Assembly (NCBI RefSeq): GCF_022809715.1
Contig: NZ_CP094460.1
Span: 1,922,001 to 1,986,000, forward strand
Direction of reading: 5' to 3'
DNA: 64,000 nt
Source of the DNA: Burkholderia pyrrocinia
GTDB taxonomy: Bacteria > Pseudomonadota > Gammaproteobacteria > Burkholderiales > Burkholderiaceae
Part shown: positions 3,891-9,395 of the stretch, piece by piece
Position numbering within the stretch: position 1 is the stretch's first letter
How the letters are laid out: every line of letters begins with the position of its first letter
Notes under the pieces: generated by a model
What the model was told of the DNA's origin: nothing
The model's database searches: none
Seen by the model: the letters and a program-made list of their open reading frames with translations, nothing else
Position numbers and translations under genes: made by a program

Positions 3891-4550
3891 TCAATCTCGA
3901 TCGGGCGCGCCGAGCGGAAAGAACGAGCGAAACGGCCGCGCCTCGTCGACCGCTCTCGCGAACGACGGCCGCGCAAGCAGACGCTTCCGATACGCGATCA
4001 CGTTCGCGAACGACGGATCGATCCGGTGCGTCCAGTCCGCGTAGAACAGGAACGGTGCCGCGCCGCAATCGGCGACGCTGAAGCGGTCGCCGGCCGCCCA
4101 TTCGCGATCGGCCATCTTCTGGTCCAGCCACGCATATGACGTTTCAAGCATCGCGCGCGCATCGGCGACACCCCGTGCATCGCGCTCGGCCTCCGGCCGC
4201 AGCGCGTCGTGCACGACCTTCTGCTGCGGCGTCGATACGTAGTTGTCGAAGAAGCGATCCATCATCCGCACCTCGAGCGCCGCGTGCGGATCGTCGGGCA
4301 GCAGGCGCACGGGGCCCGGATGGTTCAGGCCGAGATACTCGATGATGATCGACGCCTCGACCACGGTGCGGCCCGCATCGACCAGCACCGGAAAACGCTT
4401 CAGCGGCCACAGCGCGGTCAGCTCCTGCATCGGCTTCGGATCGTCGTGCGCGAGCACGCGATATTCGAACGGCGTGCCGTTCTCGTACAGCGCGGTCAGC
4501 ACTTTCTGGCAGTAGGACGAAAACGGATGGGCGTAAAGCGTCGGCATCAT
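3891..4550 (-). CDS. Glutathione S-transferase family protein
   Basis: 219 residues. The thioredoxin-fold N-terminus (YAHPFSSYCQKVLTALYENG) places serines at positions 11-12 for thiol activation. FPVLVDAGRTVVEASIIIEYL follows, the cis-Pro and glutathione gamma-glutamyl binding region with the Glu-Ala/Ser pair. The alpha-helical C-terminal domain includes a GDRFSVADCGAAPFLFY segment, the usual N-capping box. It presumably conjugates or reduces electrophiles using glutathione in the cytoplasm. It points the same way as the persulfide dioxygenase gene upstream of it, whose enzyme family uses glutathione persulfide, so a functional link is possible but unproven. Confidence 0.9.
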   Translation of the reverse strand: MMPTLYAHPFSSYCQKVLTALYENGTPFEYRVLAHDDPKPMQELTALWPLKRFPVLVDAGRTVVEASIIIEYLGLNHPGPVRLLPDDPHAALEVRMMDRFFDNYVSTPQQKVVHDALRPEAERDARGVADARAMLETSYAWLDQKMADREWAAGDRFSVADCGAAPFLFYADWTHRIDPSFANVIAYRKRLLARPSFARAVDEARPFRSFFPLGAPDRD

Positions 4551-5747: not shown

Positions 5748-6160
5748 CGCGAAGTTGCTCCGTCGCCTGTTCAGGTTGGTGTTGTGCGGCCCACGTGCCG
5801 TGGGTCGTCGACGCGCGGGCAAGTGGATGCGAGTGCCGCCCCGTCCGTATGCCTGCCGCGCCGCATGACCCGAAAGTTCGCGGCTGCGTCTGCTACGCAT
5901 CGTCGTCCGGCACCGGCGTCGGCATGAGGGCATCGACGCCGGACAACCGGCATCGCACCTGCCGCGTTTCACACATCCATATAGCGTAGATCAAAATGCA
6001 CGCGCCGCCGGCATCCCATACGCGGCAACCGATTCCGACGACGAATGGCGCGCGGCGGGACGATTCGCCGCGTCCGGATGGCGGCGCGCACTGCCTTACA
6101 CTACGGCCTGTTCTCGTCCCCGTTCCACTCCAGACGCTACACGCAACGCAGCGGTAGCCA
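5748..6160. other. Intergenic stretch at the left border of the T6SS island
   Basis: No gene is supported here. The left part is ordinary GC-rich sequence upstream of the persulfide dioxygenase gene and should hold its promoter. Composition shifts to visibly lower GC at about 6.1 kb, marking the probable left edge of the island. No direct repeat or tRNA was seen at the junction. Confidence 0.45.
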
Positions 6161-6451
6161 ATGGCGCATCAGAGACGCGAGGTTCCCAATCAGCGGAATC
6201 TCGGCTCGAATAGCACGAAAAAGGCCCGCTCTGAATTGCGCGAAGCGTGGAGCTCGGCCAATTTCAAGAAAAATCGGACGCTGACGCTAGAGCAGCGGTT
6301 TGTGCTGGAAGTAGTCCATGTGCGCCGAACAATGCGGCTCATGGAAAAAATGGACTGCGCCGCCGAACTGGAACTGAAGAAGAACGGCCCCCCTGACTTG
6401 TTCGCACTCGACCAGCTTCGTCGCACGATCGACGGCACTCGCTTCGATTGA
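6161..6451 (+). CDS. Small hypothetical protein at the start of the T6SS island
   Basis: 96 residues, Lys/Arg-rich and predicted mostly helical, with stretches such as LTLEQRFVLEVVHVRRTMRLMEKM. No recognised family. It lies 91 bases upstream of the PAAR gene on the same strand and shares the lower GC of the island, which argues for a real gene travelling with the cassette. No strong ribosome-binding site is visible before ATG 6161. It may be unrelated to secretion. Confidence 0.5.
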   Translation: MAHQRREVPNQRNLGSNSTKKARSELREAWSSANFKKNRTLTLEQRFVLEVVHVRRTMRLMEKMDCAAELELKKNGPPDLFALDQLRRTIDGTRFD

Positions 6452-6542
6452 CAATAGTTGACTGACTGCGAGATCGCCAACGACCGGTCTCTCTCCCCGG
6501 AAATGGTAAATTCATACGAAAACCACACCTACGAGAGAACAT

Positions 6543-6959
6543 ATGGCCCGAGCCATGATCTGCGTCGGCGACACGACGACGCATGGTGGCCGCGTGCTGG
6601 AGGGCACCGCGACCGCAACCATTGACGGGAAACCCATTGCCGGTGTCGGGCACAAGGTACTTTGCCCGCAGTGCAAGGGGGGTTTTCCGATCCTACCCGC
6701 CACAGGGCGGAGATACCCGCACACCTTTGATGGACGAGAAACCGCCATTGAGGGTATGAAAACCGCGTGCGGAGCGACGTTGATCGCATCGCAGTCGACC
6801 GCGACGCTCGACGACGTCGGAGCTGGCGAAGCAACGACAGGCGGCGCAGTTTCGGCTGTCCCAGCTACTGCAGCGGCACTTGCCCCCTCGCCCACGCTCT
6901 GCCTCGAATGCCTGAAAACTGCGGCCGAGAATGCCGCGACGATGATCGCGCGCGGGTAG
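6543..6959 (+). CDS. PAAR-domain T6SS spike-tip protein
   Basis: 138 residues. The N-terminal 90 residues form a PAAR domain: MARAMICVGDTTTHGGRV, the turn IDGKPIAGVGHKVLCPQC, then GRRYPHTFDGRETAIEGMKTACGATLIAS. The Cys/His residues fit the zinc site at the cone tip. A short Ala/Thr-rich tail ends in a CLECLK stretch. PAAR proteins cap the VgrG trimer and carry effectors into target cells. Here the domain is separate from the toxin and opens a cassette of chaperone, co-chaperone, toxin and immunity genes. The DUF4123 gene follows after three bases, so the genes are co-transcribed. Confidence 0.92.
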   Translation: MARAMICVGDTTTHGGRVLEGTATATIDGKPIAGVGHKVLCPQCKGGFPILPATGRRYPHTFDGRETAIEGMKTACGATLIASQSTATLDDVGAGEATTGGAVSAVPATAAALAPSPTLCLECLKTAAENAATMIARG

Positions 6960-6962
6960 CAC

Positions 6963-7466
6963 ATGACCGGAAATTCGATCGAAGCATTCTTCCTCAAGCG
7001 GCAACAGCAGTTGACCATGCAAGTGCACCTGTATGCGCTTGTCGACGGCCTTCTTTACGCCAACGCGGCCAACGGTTCATCCCCGCAACGATCACAGTCG
7101 GCCGCCGCCCTGTTCGACAACACTCCCGACTCGTCGCTGGCCGATGCCGGACCGTGGCTAGTCGACTACGAGCTCGCATCCGGCAATACCCGCCGCACGC
7201 TTTCTGCGATGGCCAACAGTTCCCCGGGCGTGTCCTGGCTAATCAGCGCATTTCCGATTGAATCGCTCGCCGACGAGCTGCGCAACCGCCTCGACGTACG
7301 CTTGCCGGACGGGCGCACTGCCCTGCTCCGCTTCTACGATGCCCGCATCATGGCCGACGTCGCGTCGCTGATGGAATTCACGCAGCGCATGCAGTTTTTC
7401 GTGCCGACGTTCAACTGGCTCGTCGAAGTGAATGGAAAACTAAGGGGAGTACACCCGCATGCTTGA
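6963..7466 (+). CDS. DUF4123 T6SS effector chaperone (adaptor)
   Basis: 167 residues with the DUF4123 pattern: VHLYALVDGLLYANA near the N-terminus, GPWLVDYEL in the middle and a LRFYDARIMADVASLMEF segment toward the end. DUF4123 proteins (Tap/TEC type) bind a specific effector and load it onto VgrG or PAAR. Its position directly after PAAR and before the toxin matches the known order PAAR - tecT - co-tecT - tseT - tsiT in Pseudomonas aeruginosa. It overlaps the next gene by eight bases, indicating translational coupling. Confidence 0.88.
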   Translation: MTGNSIEAFFLKRQQQLTMQVHLYALVDGLLYANAANGSSPQRSQSAAALFDNTPDSSLADAGPWLVDYELASGNTRRTLSAMANSSPGVSWLISAFPIESLADELRNRLDVRLPDGRTALLRFYDARIMADVASLMEFTQRMQFFVPTFNWLVEVNGKLRGVHPHA

Positions 7467-7938
7467 ACTGACAAGCGAACAGATCGCCGGCCTTGCCGAG
7501 ATCGATGCGCGCGGATATGTCGAACGCACCCGGCAGGATCTCGTCATAGCGGACCCGAAACTAGCCGACGACAGCACGCTGCCTGCGCGCCTCTGGAATG
7601 CATACGTCGAGGCTCGCCGGCTCGGTATCCAGTCCGACGAGAACATCGCGGTGTTTCTTCGAATCGAGGCATACGCACCGAAGTTTTACGAGAAACCTGC
7701 GACGCGCGCATGGATAACGCGCCCCGGCCGATCGGCCGACGAACGCTTTCACGATTACCTTCGCGTCATCAAGTGGCGCATCGAACATCCGGAATACAAC
7801 GGGGGATCTCGAAATGGCGGGATTGGTAGTACCGATAATCGAAGCAGCGGCAGTGGAGCTTGGACCAGTATTGGCGCGAGCTGGCGTCGCCTTATTGGGC
7901 GGGGCGGCAGTGGCGGGAACTGGGAGTCTGTCGGGTGA
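7459..7938 (+). CDS. Probable T6SS co-chaperone
   Basis: 159 residues. The first ~115 residues look like a helical domain (EQIAGLAEIDARGYVERTRQ, then RHDYLRVIKW-like sequence). The last ~42 residues are Gly/Ser-rich low complexity and overlap the toxin gene by 125 bases in another frame. The function rests on position: in the P. aeruginosa TseT system a small co-chaperone gene sits between the DUF4123 chaperone and the toxin. Sequence alone does not place it in a named family. The large overlap suggests either tight coupling or that the natural end was earlier and the tail is an extension. Confidence 0.72.
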   Translation: MLELTSEQIAGLAEIDARGYVERTRQDLVIADPKLADDSTLPARLWNAYVEARRLGIQSDENIAVFLRIEAYAPKFYEKPATRAWITRPGRSADERFHDYLRVIKWRIEHPEYNGGSRNGGIGSTDNRSSGSGAWTSIGASWRRLIGRGGSGGNWESVG

Positions 7939-8401
7939 TACCCCAAAGGACGAAAGCAAGGCAAAACCGGACGTACGGGCGATTCCGCGCACGGGCGAGA
8001 GCTGCAAGAAGTGCCCACCTGAGGCGGGGAGCATGCAGCGCCGCAACTGGAGCATGAGTGACAACTCCCGAGAATATCAAGGCCGAATTACGGGGTTCCC
8101 CTATAGCGTTGAAGAGGCCTGGAGCATGGAGTGGGTCTGGCAGCGCGACTTCGACGGCTTTCGACCGGAAAGCTGTTTGTTGATAGAAGCGAAGGGAAAG
8201 TACGATCAGTTCTTGAAGAAGGACGATGTACCGTACACCAAGACCTTTGATGACATGGAGGAGCAGGCTGGAGCTCAGGCCGCGGTTGTAGACGATCATC
8301 CTCCTGCAAGGTTGAAATGGTATTTTCAGACGGAGCGGACTTGGAACTACATGAGAACGCCGCTTGCCCGTCTTCGCGTCGAATCAGAATGGGTGCCCTG
8401 A
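7814..8401 (+). CDS. T6SS effector with Tox-REase-5 nuclease domain (TseT-like)
   Basis: 195 residues. An N-terminal Ala/Gly/Val-rich hydrophobic stretch (1-38) resembles the chaperone-bound segment of T6SS cargo. After a linker the Tox-REase-5 domain begins at REYQGRITG (about 86). The restriction-endonuclease-fold catalytic set is DFDGF (D112, D114) and LIEAKGKYD (E125, K127). Such effectors degrade DNA in rival cells. The toxin is short and carries no PAAR of its own, which explains the separate PAAR and chaperone genes upstream. Start ATG 7814 lies inside the previous gene; no Shine-Dalgarno sequence is required if translation is coupled. Confidence 0.88.
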   Translation: MAGLVVPIIEAAAVELGPVLARAGVALLGGAAVAGTGSLSGDTPKDESKAKPDVRAIPRTGESCKKCPPEAGSMQRRNWSMSDNSREYQGRITGFPYSVEEAWSMEWVWQRDFDGFRPESCLLIEAKGKYDQFLKKDDVPYTKTFDDMEEQAGAQAAVVDDHPPARLKWYFQTERTWNYMRTPLARLRVESEWVP

Positions 8402-8406
8402 CAAAA

Positions 8407-9141
8407 ATGGAAATAGTTACGCAATTTCGTAGCCCTGCCGATTTCGCCCAGCCTGGCGATTTTGCGGCTCATCTTGTCCGTCTATGGCCGGTGGTTGAGG
8501 CCATGTCACGCGAGGACGAACGTTTAGGGCAGTGGTGGCTGAAGGCGGATACCGAGGAAGAAGCCCGTCTGTATCCCATGTATGAAGCGCCCGGCATACC
8601 TTCGACAGCCGTTTTGGCAGTCTTGGCGCAACGGTACGAAAAAAAGATGGACCTTCCTAAAGTATTTGGCTTCTGGAATGGTCAGATGGACGCGGCCAAC
8701 AGCGCGAGGTTGAAGTTAGGCATCGATGCGAAGAGGCGGCCCAGCGAGGTAGAAATTGGGCTACCGGCACAGAGCGCAGTCTCGGCGGACGAGCACAGCT
8801 ATGAGGGGGCGGCCAAGATAGTGGCCGCGATCGTCTCGGTTTATGACCCGATGTACGTCTCTGTTTCACCACGAGAGTATTTTCCCCGGCAGGTGTTTGA
8901 TGACAAGCCTGGCGTTGGCTGGATGCTATATCTCCCGAAGCTCCTCACGGCTCAGCAAGTCCCGGAAGCACGCGAATTGATTCCAGTTCCCGAAGCCGGT
9001 CGGAAGCAGACCGGGACGATCATTGTGAGCGTCCCAGATGCCGTTTTTTCAGTGGACAACTCCGAACACGTCGACATTGCAAACCGTATCGAGATTCGGC
9101 TCGTCGACCAGGACCTTCTGCCCGCGTTCGCTGATCTGTAA
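8407..9141 (+). CDS. Immunity protein for the Tox-REase-5 effector (Imm52-like)
   Basis: About 244 residues from ATG 8407. The alternative ATG 8389 overlaps the toxin's end, and the frame is open from 8317. No signal peptide, consistent with a cytoplasmic neutraliser of a nuclease. Features include GQWWLKADTEEEARLYPMY and a KPGVGWMLYLPKLL segment, as in immunity proteins paired with Tox-REase-5 (Imm52 family, assigned from recall of the family pattern). It is the last gene of the cassette and is followed at once by a strong terminator hairpin. Low GC like the toxin. Confidence 0.8.
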   Translation: MEIVTQFRSPADFAQPGDFAAHLVRLWPVVEAMSREDERLGQWWLKADTEEEARLYPMYEAPGIPSTAVLAVLAQRYEKKMDLPKVFGFWNGQMDAANSARLKLGIDAKRRPSEVEIGLPAQSAVSADEHSYEGAAKIVAAIVSVYDPMYVSVSPREYFPRQVFDDKPGVGWMLYLPKLLTAQQVPEARELIPVPEAGRKQTGTIIVSVPDAVFSVDNSEHVDIANRIEIRLVDQDLLPAFADL

Positions 9142-9144
9142 GCA

Positions 9145-9176
9145 CGATGCCGGCGCGGGAGTCCGCGCTGGCATCG
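9145..9176 (+). terminator. Strong hairpin terminating the T6SS cassette
   Basis: CGATGCC-G-GCGCGG (9145-9158) pairs with CCGCGC-T-GGCATCG (9163-9176) through a GAGT loop: 13 Watson-Crick pairs plus one G-U pair. It begins four bases after the immunity gene stop. The T-run is weak (TCGGTT). Confidence 0.7.
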
Positions 9177-9179
9177 TCG

Positions 9180-9323
9180 GTTAGGACAGCCTCAAGCTAC
9201 GACATGGTTCTCCGGTATGCGCACCTTGCGCCCGACCATCTGGCACGACATGCCGAATCGGTCACAGTTTGGTCCCAAGGTATGACCGATTTCCATGCCA
9301 CACTGGATCGCCAAGCGTCATGA
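9180..9323 (+). pseudogene. C-terminal remnant of a phage-type tyrosine recombinase (integrase)
   Basis: The frame through ATG 9204 reads ASSYDMVLRYAHLAPDHLA and continues to a TGA at 9321-9323. MVxRYAHLxPxHL is the hallmark C-terminal segment of tyrosine recombinases, with the catalytic tyrosine in RYAHL. Only about 45 residues remain; the catalytic Arg/His boxes upstream are missing and replaced by the T6SS cassette terminator. This is the scar of an integrative element, and it coincides with the right border of the lower-GC island. Confidence 0.78.
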
Positions 9324-9395
9324 TCGGCCGCAACGCCATGACTAGCAGGAGTTCATCGTTTTGAGCATCACAATCCGTCTCTGCCCATCTGATAC

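Follow-up and report, generated by a model that had tools for sequence, protein, structure and literature searches.

What does a co-chaperone gene without a Pfam or NCBIfam family contribute to a T6SS cargo cassette of an otherwise familiar kind, and why does it run into the toxin gene behind it? The question arises in a 64,000-nt stretch of the Burkholderia pyrrocinia genome (the window, C2:1922001-1986000), where five genes on the forward (+) strand occupy 6543..9141. A PAAR tip protein (138 aa, 6543..6959; PF05488, 9e-21) is followed by a TecT-like DUF4123 protein, the N-terminal lobe of a predicted T6SS adaptor (167 aa, 6963..7466; PF13503, 8.9e-28, 97.3 bits against a cut-off of 25.8), the co-chaperone coT (159 aa, 7459..7938), a Tox-REase-5 nuclease (195 aa, 7814..8401; PF15648, 7.9e-26; PDB 7dym_A, 1.9e-10) and an Imm52 immunity protein (244 aa, 8407..9141; PF15579, 2e-9, 37.8 bits against a cut-off of 25; PDB 4rho_A, 5.1e-57). 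The initial annotation had described a complete five-gene cassette with its nuclease at 7814-8401, to be checked with PF15648, DUF4123, PAAR and PF15579 profiles. All five genes are indeed present and all four profiles matched above the Pfam cut-offs, coT being the exception. With the Tox-REase-5 match of the 7814-8401 protein, one of the outcomes that the annotation had named as refuting it did not materialise. The DUF4123 protein retrieved nothing from a PDB sequence search, and it aligned with the Tla1 model (245 residues) over residues 7-151 only, below the cut-off. The same five genes stand in the same order in the window and in 30 of 30 congeneric loci, so the arrangement is not a matter of chance.

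Judged by domain content and order, which the initial annotation had read correctly, the cassette is of the TseT kind, already known as such. The order at the PAO1 locus, presumably PA3904-PA3908, is presumed to be the one found here. The P. aeruginosa system, PAAR4-TecT-co-TecT-TseT-TsiT, was described by Burkinshaw et al. 2018, according to papers that cite it; PAAR, DUF4123 chaperone, co-chaperone, nuclease and immunity protein are common to both systems, and both lie away from T6SS structural genes. Six Pseudomonas-type loci (five Pseudomonas and one Gammaproteobacterium MAG, with PAO1 outside the set) were compared directly. All six share the order, with the nearest Imm52 match in L126 about 0.9 kb past the toxin, and in all six the coT profile matched the gene at the same position (E 5e-10 to 4e-11). 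Their PAARs matched the Burkholderia PAAR profile weakly (E 3e-4 to 2e-5). Differences were found in coT, which has 153-161 residues in the long class to which the window belongs but 118-127 in the Pseudomonas-type loci and which overlaps the toxin gene only in the former, and in the toxin N-terminus, which is hydrophobic here and Pro-rich there. Antifungal TseN was rejected as a counterpart, since the portion of its source covered here concerns a different effector.

The toxin carries the motif FDG at residues 113-115 and EAK at 125-127, and D114, F116, E125 and K127 are invariant in all 38 aligned rows. No domain besides Tox-REase-5 was found, in a library that may not hold a MIX model. In the structural model, residues 1-61 have pLDDT below 50 except for residue 57, and the remainder is folded. 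With a best 19-residue mean of 1.76, the N-terminal hydrophobic segment makes a transmembrane reading of the toxin N-terminus borderline, and that reading was not adopted. Eag chaperones, which according to the part of PMC7773334 covered here serve effectors with N-terminal transmembrane segments, are comparable as chaperones for a hydrophobic effector N-terminus, but no Eag gene is among the five of the cassette and its hydrophobic segment is only borderline. The FDG/EAK motif and the Imm52 partner are shared with the polymorphic toxins of Zhang et al. 2012 (PMC3482391, in the sections covered). For the immunity gene, an open reading frame from 8317 had been given initially; such a start would lie inside the toxin gene, and we corrected it to 8407, because in all 30 related loci the start codon closest to the aligned start falls 2-12 nt past the toxin stop.

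The surroundings point to acquisition. Among 30 LysR loci examined by blastn with the window flanks (the 30 best-matching loci of 60 genomes carrying the LysR gene), 23 were empty, 3 held such a cassette and 4 held other material. In empty congeners the upstream side (to 6118-6125) lies about 15-24 nt from the LysR side (from 9394-9395), and the inserted segment missing at these sites corresponds to 6126..9393, with no strand assigned. The GC content is 0.590 in 6543..9141 and 0.680 across the window; the horizontal gain that the initial annotation had drawn from lower GC is thus supported, more by the empty site than by GC. Its statement that T6SS genes are absent nearby also held, as none of the genome's 3 TssC, 3 Hcp and 12 VgrG matches lies inside the window. 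The term orphan payload fits the location, but the genome carries a second cassette of the same kind on another contig. The cassette is probably a horizontally acquired orphan T6SS cargo. Upstream, a small ORF (96 aa, 6161..6451, +) is retained near some relatives, with tblastn matches of 62-71% identity at 8 of the 30 loci; it belongs to no family, its sole Pfam match being sub-threshold. Promoter and terminator scans stayed at chance level, and phage records gave no match.

The coT protein begins with a helical core (about residues 1-112), continues with a linker and ends in a tail, some 41 residues long, whose codons lie within the toxin gene. Comparison with PDB sequences gave nothing credible (best E 0.81 with the single sequence and 0.067 with the profile), and the sole match in a class-wide coT search was the own genome (1 of 369). 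The core aligns with the C-lobe of Tap3, a two-lobed DUF4123 adaptor that partners Tke5 (PDB 9r8g). Such adaptors, Tap6 among them, share the DUF4123 N-lobe with the cassette but carry both lobes in one chain; here the 167-aa DUF4123 chain has no C-lobe, and the gene after it, overlapping it by 8 nt, supplies the C-lobe-like part. On the DUF4123 tree the split-lobe state needs three changes, at least two of them forced, so the split may have arisen more than once and may run in either direction. No description of co-TecT as an adaptor C-lobe, and no mention of its gene overlapping a toxin gene, was found in titles and abstract starts of the open PMC papers listed, and neither TecT nor co-TecT occurs in the Tap3 paper (PMC12909789).

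The coT/toxin overlap (125 nt, 7814..7938, +) covers toxin residues 1 to about 41, with the toxin frame at +1 relative to coT. It is present in 31 of 31 loci (the window and the 30 congeneric loci) with a length of 104-125 nt. The coT tail within it carries W135, I138, W142, L145 and I146. On the tree the long coT state is nested and requires one change (support 80/93; 78% of bootstrap trees), and reading it as a gain of the overlap, not a loss, depends on the Pseudomonas rooting, with some branches long. The overlap is contained in the gene coordinates of the initial annotation but absent from its text, which also mentions neither the exchange junction described below nor the likeness of coT to an adaptor lobe.

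Several other accounts of coT and its tail have to be weighed. That coT is an unrelated helical protein, resembling the Tap3 C-lobe through a common helical arrangement, is improbable: the matched protein is itself a DUF4123 adaptor, the matched region lies C-terminal to its DUF4123 lobe, the match stands 4.6 Z units over the next row, and an independent profile comparison of coT with the adaptor C-lobe gave 94.6% with controls at 0.3% or below. Still less probable is an overlap kept for an RNA reason, such as structure or translational coupling, and not for a peptide. The toxin start codon does lie inside coT in 31 of 31 loci, so toxin translation must initiate within coT; however, the RNA of 7780-7960 folds unremarkably (z -1.17), Rfam gave no family, and the sites under constraint, some 60-85 nt 3' of the toxin start, fit coT codons. 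Against a eukaryotic target for the toxin stand the Imm52 gene located behind it at every one of the 30 loci and excerpts of PMC10281587, which report TseT to be antibacterial, with prey lacking tseT-tsiT restricted and rescued by the immunity gene; we regard such a target as very improbable.

The account that competes most directly is that the cassette is TseT-like but its coT tail is a harmless run-on after stop loss, conserved only through the toxin frame. The toxin frame is strongly held, as four-fold coT sites differ in 0.127 of comparisons inside the overlap against 0.485 before it, and synonymous recoding of the toxin leaves the coT frame open in 65-89% of trials per locus. The tail is also less conserved than the coT core, and the overlap sites taken as a whole yield p 0.059, which is not significant. 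Against a run-on stand choices that are synonymous in the toxin frame and explained by the coT frame: each of the three conserved Leu columns uses TTA or TTG, and the T under W142 never changes. Four hydrophobic tail positions, moreover, arise together in at most 0.15% of recoding trials per locus but are observed in 34 of 40 loci, and the codon bias is absent from short-coT loci. Two further tests of the tail gave little: its Trp count, taken locus by locus, failed to reach significance in 30 of the 31, and its hydrophobic moment gave a weak signal. Selection in both frames is indicated, and we judge the run-on account unlikely. The sequences themselves show which genes are present and in what order, the overlap, the codon choices held for the coT frame, the exchange junction, the empty site and the resemblance of coT to an adaptor C-lobe; the tail itself is probably a flexible linker and short Trp/Arg-rich helix that would help to bind the toxin handle.

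The furthest-reaching interpretation, that the chaperone and co-chaperone form a split two-lobed DUF4123 adaptor whose C-lobe evolved a new cargo-binding tail by overprinting the cargo start in one Burkholderiaceae clade, is offered tentatively, with somewhat less than even confidence. It includes the suggestion that loader tail and cargo handle, sharing DNA, stay matched while nuclease and immunity genes swap. We hold it at this level because the N-terminal loop of Tap3 makes most of the contacts, according to the part of PMC12909789 covered here, and because of the lower conservation of the coT tail. An exchange junction lies at 8000..8022 (+), at toxin residues ~62-70 (CKKCPPE), where identity to the second cassette of the genome drops from 91% to 59%; the window and L034 are 95-99% identical in the 200 nt after it. 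Aligned in this way, the N-terminal part of the toxin appears constant and the C-terminal part exchanged. The polymorphic toxins of PMC3482391, in the sections covered, also combine a constant N-terminal part with a swapped C-terminal part, but what stays constant here is a short handle together with an adaptor set.

The cassette, we propose, probably arms a T6SS with a DNA- or RNA-cutting toxin. The DUF4123 protein and coT would associate to act jointly as one two-lobed Tap/Tec adaptor, grip the toxin handle (residues 1 to ~69) and pass it to the cassette's own PAAR, which would cap a VgrG spike belonging to a T6SS of this genome. After secretion, the restriction-endonuclease-fold domain would cut nucleic acid in the prey cytoplasm, and Imm52 would shield the owner and its kin. 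In the Burkholderiaceae clade, coT would have gained its tail by running on, in a different frame, into the toxin gene, and because both are encoded by one stretch of DNA, the tail would stay linked to the handle during downstream exchange. An orphan TseT-kind cassette with a toxin-loading split adaptor and a protective Imm52 is, as a whole, the explanation that we consider quite likely.

As a detached DUF4123 C-lobe, coT would allow a concrete model to be drawn up for the structure of a known chaperone complex, in which the co-chaperone had no Pfam or NCBIfam match and no credible PDB sequence relative. The overlap would be an example of a helper protein that acquired a segment from its own client's gene, with the event placed on a tree. 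There is also a practical side: in a B. glumae plasmid the annotated toxin start lies 240 nt late, and 80 residues are lost.

The 30 congeneric loci are 34 places less the window and 3 fragments. Among 56 named loci, 7 lack the coT-toxin pair and 4 have a partial coT only; L088, L094 and L119 (interrupted frames), a second coT copy in L111 and one in L112 were excluded, and L097, whose toxin runs off the end of its contig, was not used. Apparent repeats of records already taken account for 11 of 21 long-class loci, and 8 of 9 in a further nine-locus set were already among the earlier loci. The 40-locus codon set comprises the window, the 30 congeneric and 9 named loci, with L081, whose toxin is interrupted, used only as far as the break; in L053 the toxin start was shifted two codons, to ATG. 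Identity medians omit three near sisters (L034-L036) and eight far loci (L049, L054-L060), whose PAAR identity is likewise low, at just 34-63%.

The five-gene content proposed for the cassette by the initial annotation was borne out, with Pfam matches for PAAR (window 6543-6959; PF05488, 9e-21), the DUF4123 protein (6963-7466; PF13503, 8.9e-28), the Tox-REase-5 nuclease, or toxin (7814-8401; PF15648, 7.9e-26), and the Imm52 immunity protein (8407-9141; PF15579, 2e-9, for a scanned sequence that began at 8317), and none for coT, the putative co-chaperone (7459-7938). The PF15648 match also confirmed the Tox-REase-5 identity of the 7814-8401 protein, a check that had been set beforehand. An immunity start at 8317 was rejected for 8407; in all 30 relatives the start nearest the aligned one lies 2-12 nt past the toxin stop. 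All matches added by an NCBIfam scan of the cassette proteins fell below cut-off, among them one between the DUF4123 protein and the Tla1 adaptor model (model residues 7-151 of 245). In PDB sequence searches the nuclease resembled the TseT chain of 7dym (1.9e-10), and the immunity protein matched 4rho, an 'uncharacterized' entry (5.1e-57), and, more weakly, the Imm52 chain of 7dym (4.7e-7). The Tox-REase-5 motif is given as Y, FDG, EAK, Y, Q, W, with Imm52 as partner (Zhang et al. 2012, PMC3482391); toxin residues D114, F116, E125 and K127 were invariant in 38 of 38 aligned rows. Directly 3' of the immunity gene, an inverted repeat was seen by eye at 9145-9176, which a terminator scan did not report.

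TseT export via the H2-T6SS is reported to require PAAR4, a chaperone and a co-chaperone (PMC11925235), with VgrG4b or VgrG6 as partners of PAAR4 (PMC7376260), and prey without tseT-tsiT are described as restricted and rescued by the immunity gene (PMC10281587). By homology, the window cassette should load its toxin and export it through a T6SS of its own genome. The cassette type is already known; what appears to be new is the reading of the DUF4123 protein and coT as two lobes of one DUF4123 adaptor, split into two genes, and a putative coT tail overprinted on the toxin gene. This tail may help hold the handle, the N-terminal part of the toxin (residues 1 to ~69).

The coT and toxin genes overlap by 125 nt in the window and by 104-125 nt across 31 of 31 loci. 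In 21 named loci from Burkholderia, Paraburkholderia, Caballeronia, Trinickia and Robbsia, 11 of which are records already among the 31, the overlap is 107-125 nt and the toxin is always in the +1 frame. The RefSeq annotation of a Robbsia plasmid includes the overlap, 113 nt long; for B. glumae NZ_CP100255.1 (locus L167) the annotated toxin start is at 4495 of the locus, yet the frame is open from 4255. In 22 other copies, from Pseudomonas (where toxin starts are uncertain), Thiomonas, Rugamonas, Herbaspirillum and part of the Burkholderiaceae, coT stops after 114-127 residues, leaving an overlap of at most 7 nt or a gap. A tree of the coT core and toxin domain (25 long, 22 short) placed the long state as one change (support 80/93), recovered in 78% of bootstrap trees, with long branches flagged by the tree program. 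Given rooting on Pseudomonas, the overlap is, on this phylogeny, one gain.

Both frames of the overlap carry signs of selection. Constraint on the toxin frame is seen at four-fold coT sites, which differ in 0.127 of comparisons within the overlap versus 0.485 before it. For the coT frame, all 40 loci encode W142 by TGG, and the toxin third base beneath it shows 0 changes on the tree (33 loci with a four-fold degenerate toxin codon there), against a mean of 9.25 and a minimum of 1 in 216 four-fold columns drawn from PAAR, DUF4123 and the coT core; this column is the lowest of 26 in the overlap and was spotted before the test was made. The conserved toxin leucines 20, 27 and 28, all in the overlap, are TTA/TTG in 39, 39 and 36 of 40 loci, and coT residues 138, 145 and 146 therefore stay hydrophobic. 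Elsewhere the TTA/TTG share is at most 18% in 20 conserved upstream-gene leucine columns, and 29% and 37% in two later toxin columns; a contrast of 3/3 versus 0/22 would arise by chance once in 2300, computed by hand assuming independent columns. Residues 138, 142, 145 and 146 are all hydrophobic in 34 of 40 loci, versus at most 0.15% of random synonymous recodings per locus. As a control, toxins paired with long coT use TTA/TTG in 150/257 leucine codons in the overlap versus 89/355 after it, and those paired with short coT show no such bias (25/93 early, 66/204 later). Three loci beyond the 40 (L186, L166 and L167) were consistent in 9/9 codons.

Other measures were less favorable. Selection on the tail is counted against by its conservation, below that of the core (63.8 vs 84.8), and by a hydrophobic moment test with p < 0.05 in only 11 of 40 loci. 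Taken together, the 26 four-fold overlap columns were not clearly slower than those of the upstream genes (p 0.059); they were slower than the remaining toxin (p 4e-9), although this is a fast-changing part subject to exchange.

Per 100 nt, the window cassette is 72-98% identical to the second cassette of its own genome over 6300-7999 and 38-72% over 8000-9199; to L034, from another genome, the values are 71-98% over 6500-7999 and 79-99% over 8000-9199. Median identities in 19 loci, omitting 3 sisters and 8 far loci, were 89.9 for PAAR, 82.0 for DUF4123, 84.8 for the coT core, 63.8 for its tail, 84.1 for toxin residues 1-69, 44.8 for 70-195 and 46.3 for immunity. Judged from these alignments, the constant part is the adaptor set plus the toxin handle, and the nuclease domain and immunity gene are exchanged together as a block. 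Among relatives, doubled toxin and Imm52 matches lie side by side in L080, L089, L101, L106, L111 and L112, additional Imm52 matches occur in L083, L104, L120 and L126, and toxin, coT, PAAR or immunity frames are interrupted in L081, L088, L094 and L119.

The genome (7.69 Mb, three contigs; the window is C2:1922001-1986000) has 3 TssC, 3 Hcp, 12 VgrG (one partial) and 14 PAAR matches. Of these the window holds only the cassette's own PAAR, in agreement with the earlier statement that no hcp or vgrG lies nearby. The second cassette lies at ~C1:1179936-1182530 on the minus strand; about 2.5 kb from it is the partial VgrG (C1:1176840-1177478, profile 74-303 of 305; in L033, C1:1175000-1187000). 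Toxin relatives were found in 25 of 65 congeneric genomes, own genome counted, and the coT profile matched in 58 of the family's 398 genomes, spread over 8 of 25 genera, in 11 of 72,556 plasmid records and in 0 of 50,697 phage records.

The lower GC that had been noted holds (0.590 in the cassette vs 0.680 in the window), and it declines along the cassette, with 0.645 for PAAR and 0.562 for the immunity gene. The adjoining LysR gene is present in 60 of 65 congeners, and among the 30 best-matching loci from these 60 genomes the site between window 6118-6125 and 9394-9395 is empty in 23, filled by a TseT-like cassette in 3 (own, G056, G053) and by other material in 4. Horizontal gain, with repeated loss as the alternative, is better supported by the empty site than by GC. 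The window's flanks are common to only 2 of 30 related cassettes (L036 and L050), and the cassettes therefore occupy many sites. At the same LysR site, L159 (G061:C104:174000-184000) has window 6497-6547 fused straight to 9203 onward at 7138-7188; the site in this congener (L133/L159) looks like the scar of a lost cassette. L160 (G044:C26:25000-36000) carries there, at 6800-7849, an ORF resembling a tyrosine-type integrase, as judged from the start of its translation, which suggests an insertion hot spot. A small ORF without family at window 6161-6451 is kept near 8 of 30 cassettes; its relative at L058:7626-7916 lies 3' of the cassette on the opposite strand.
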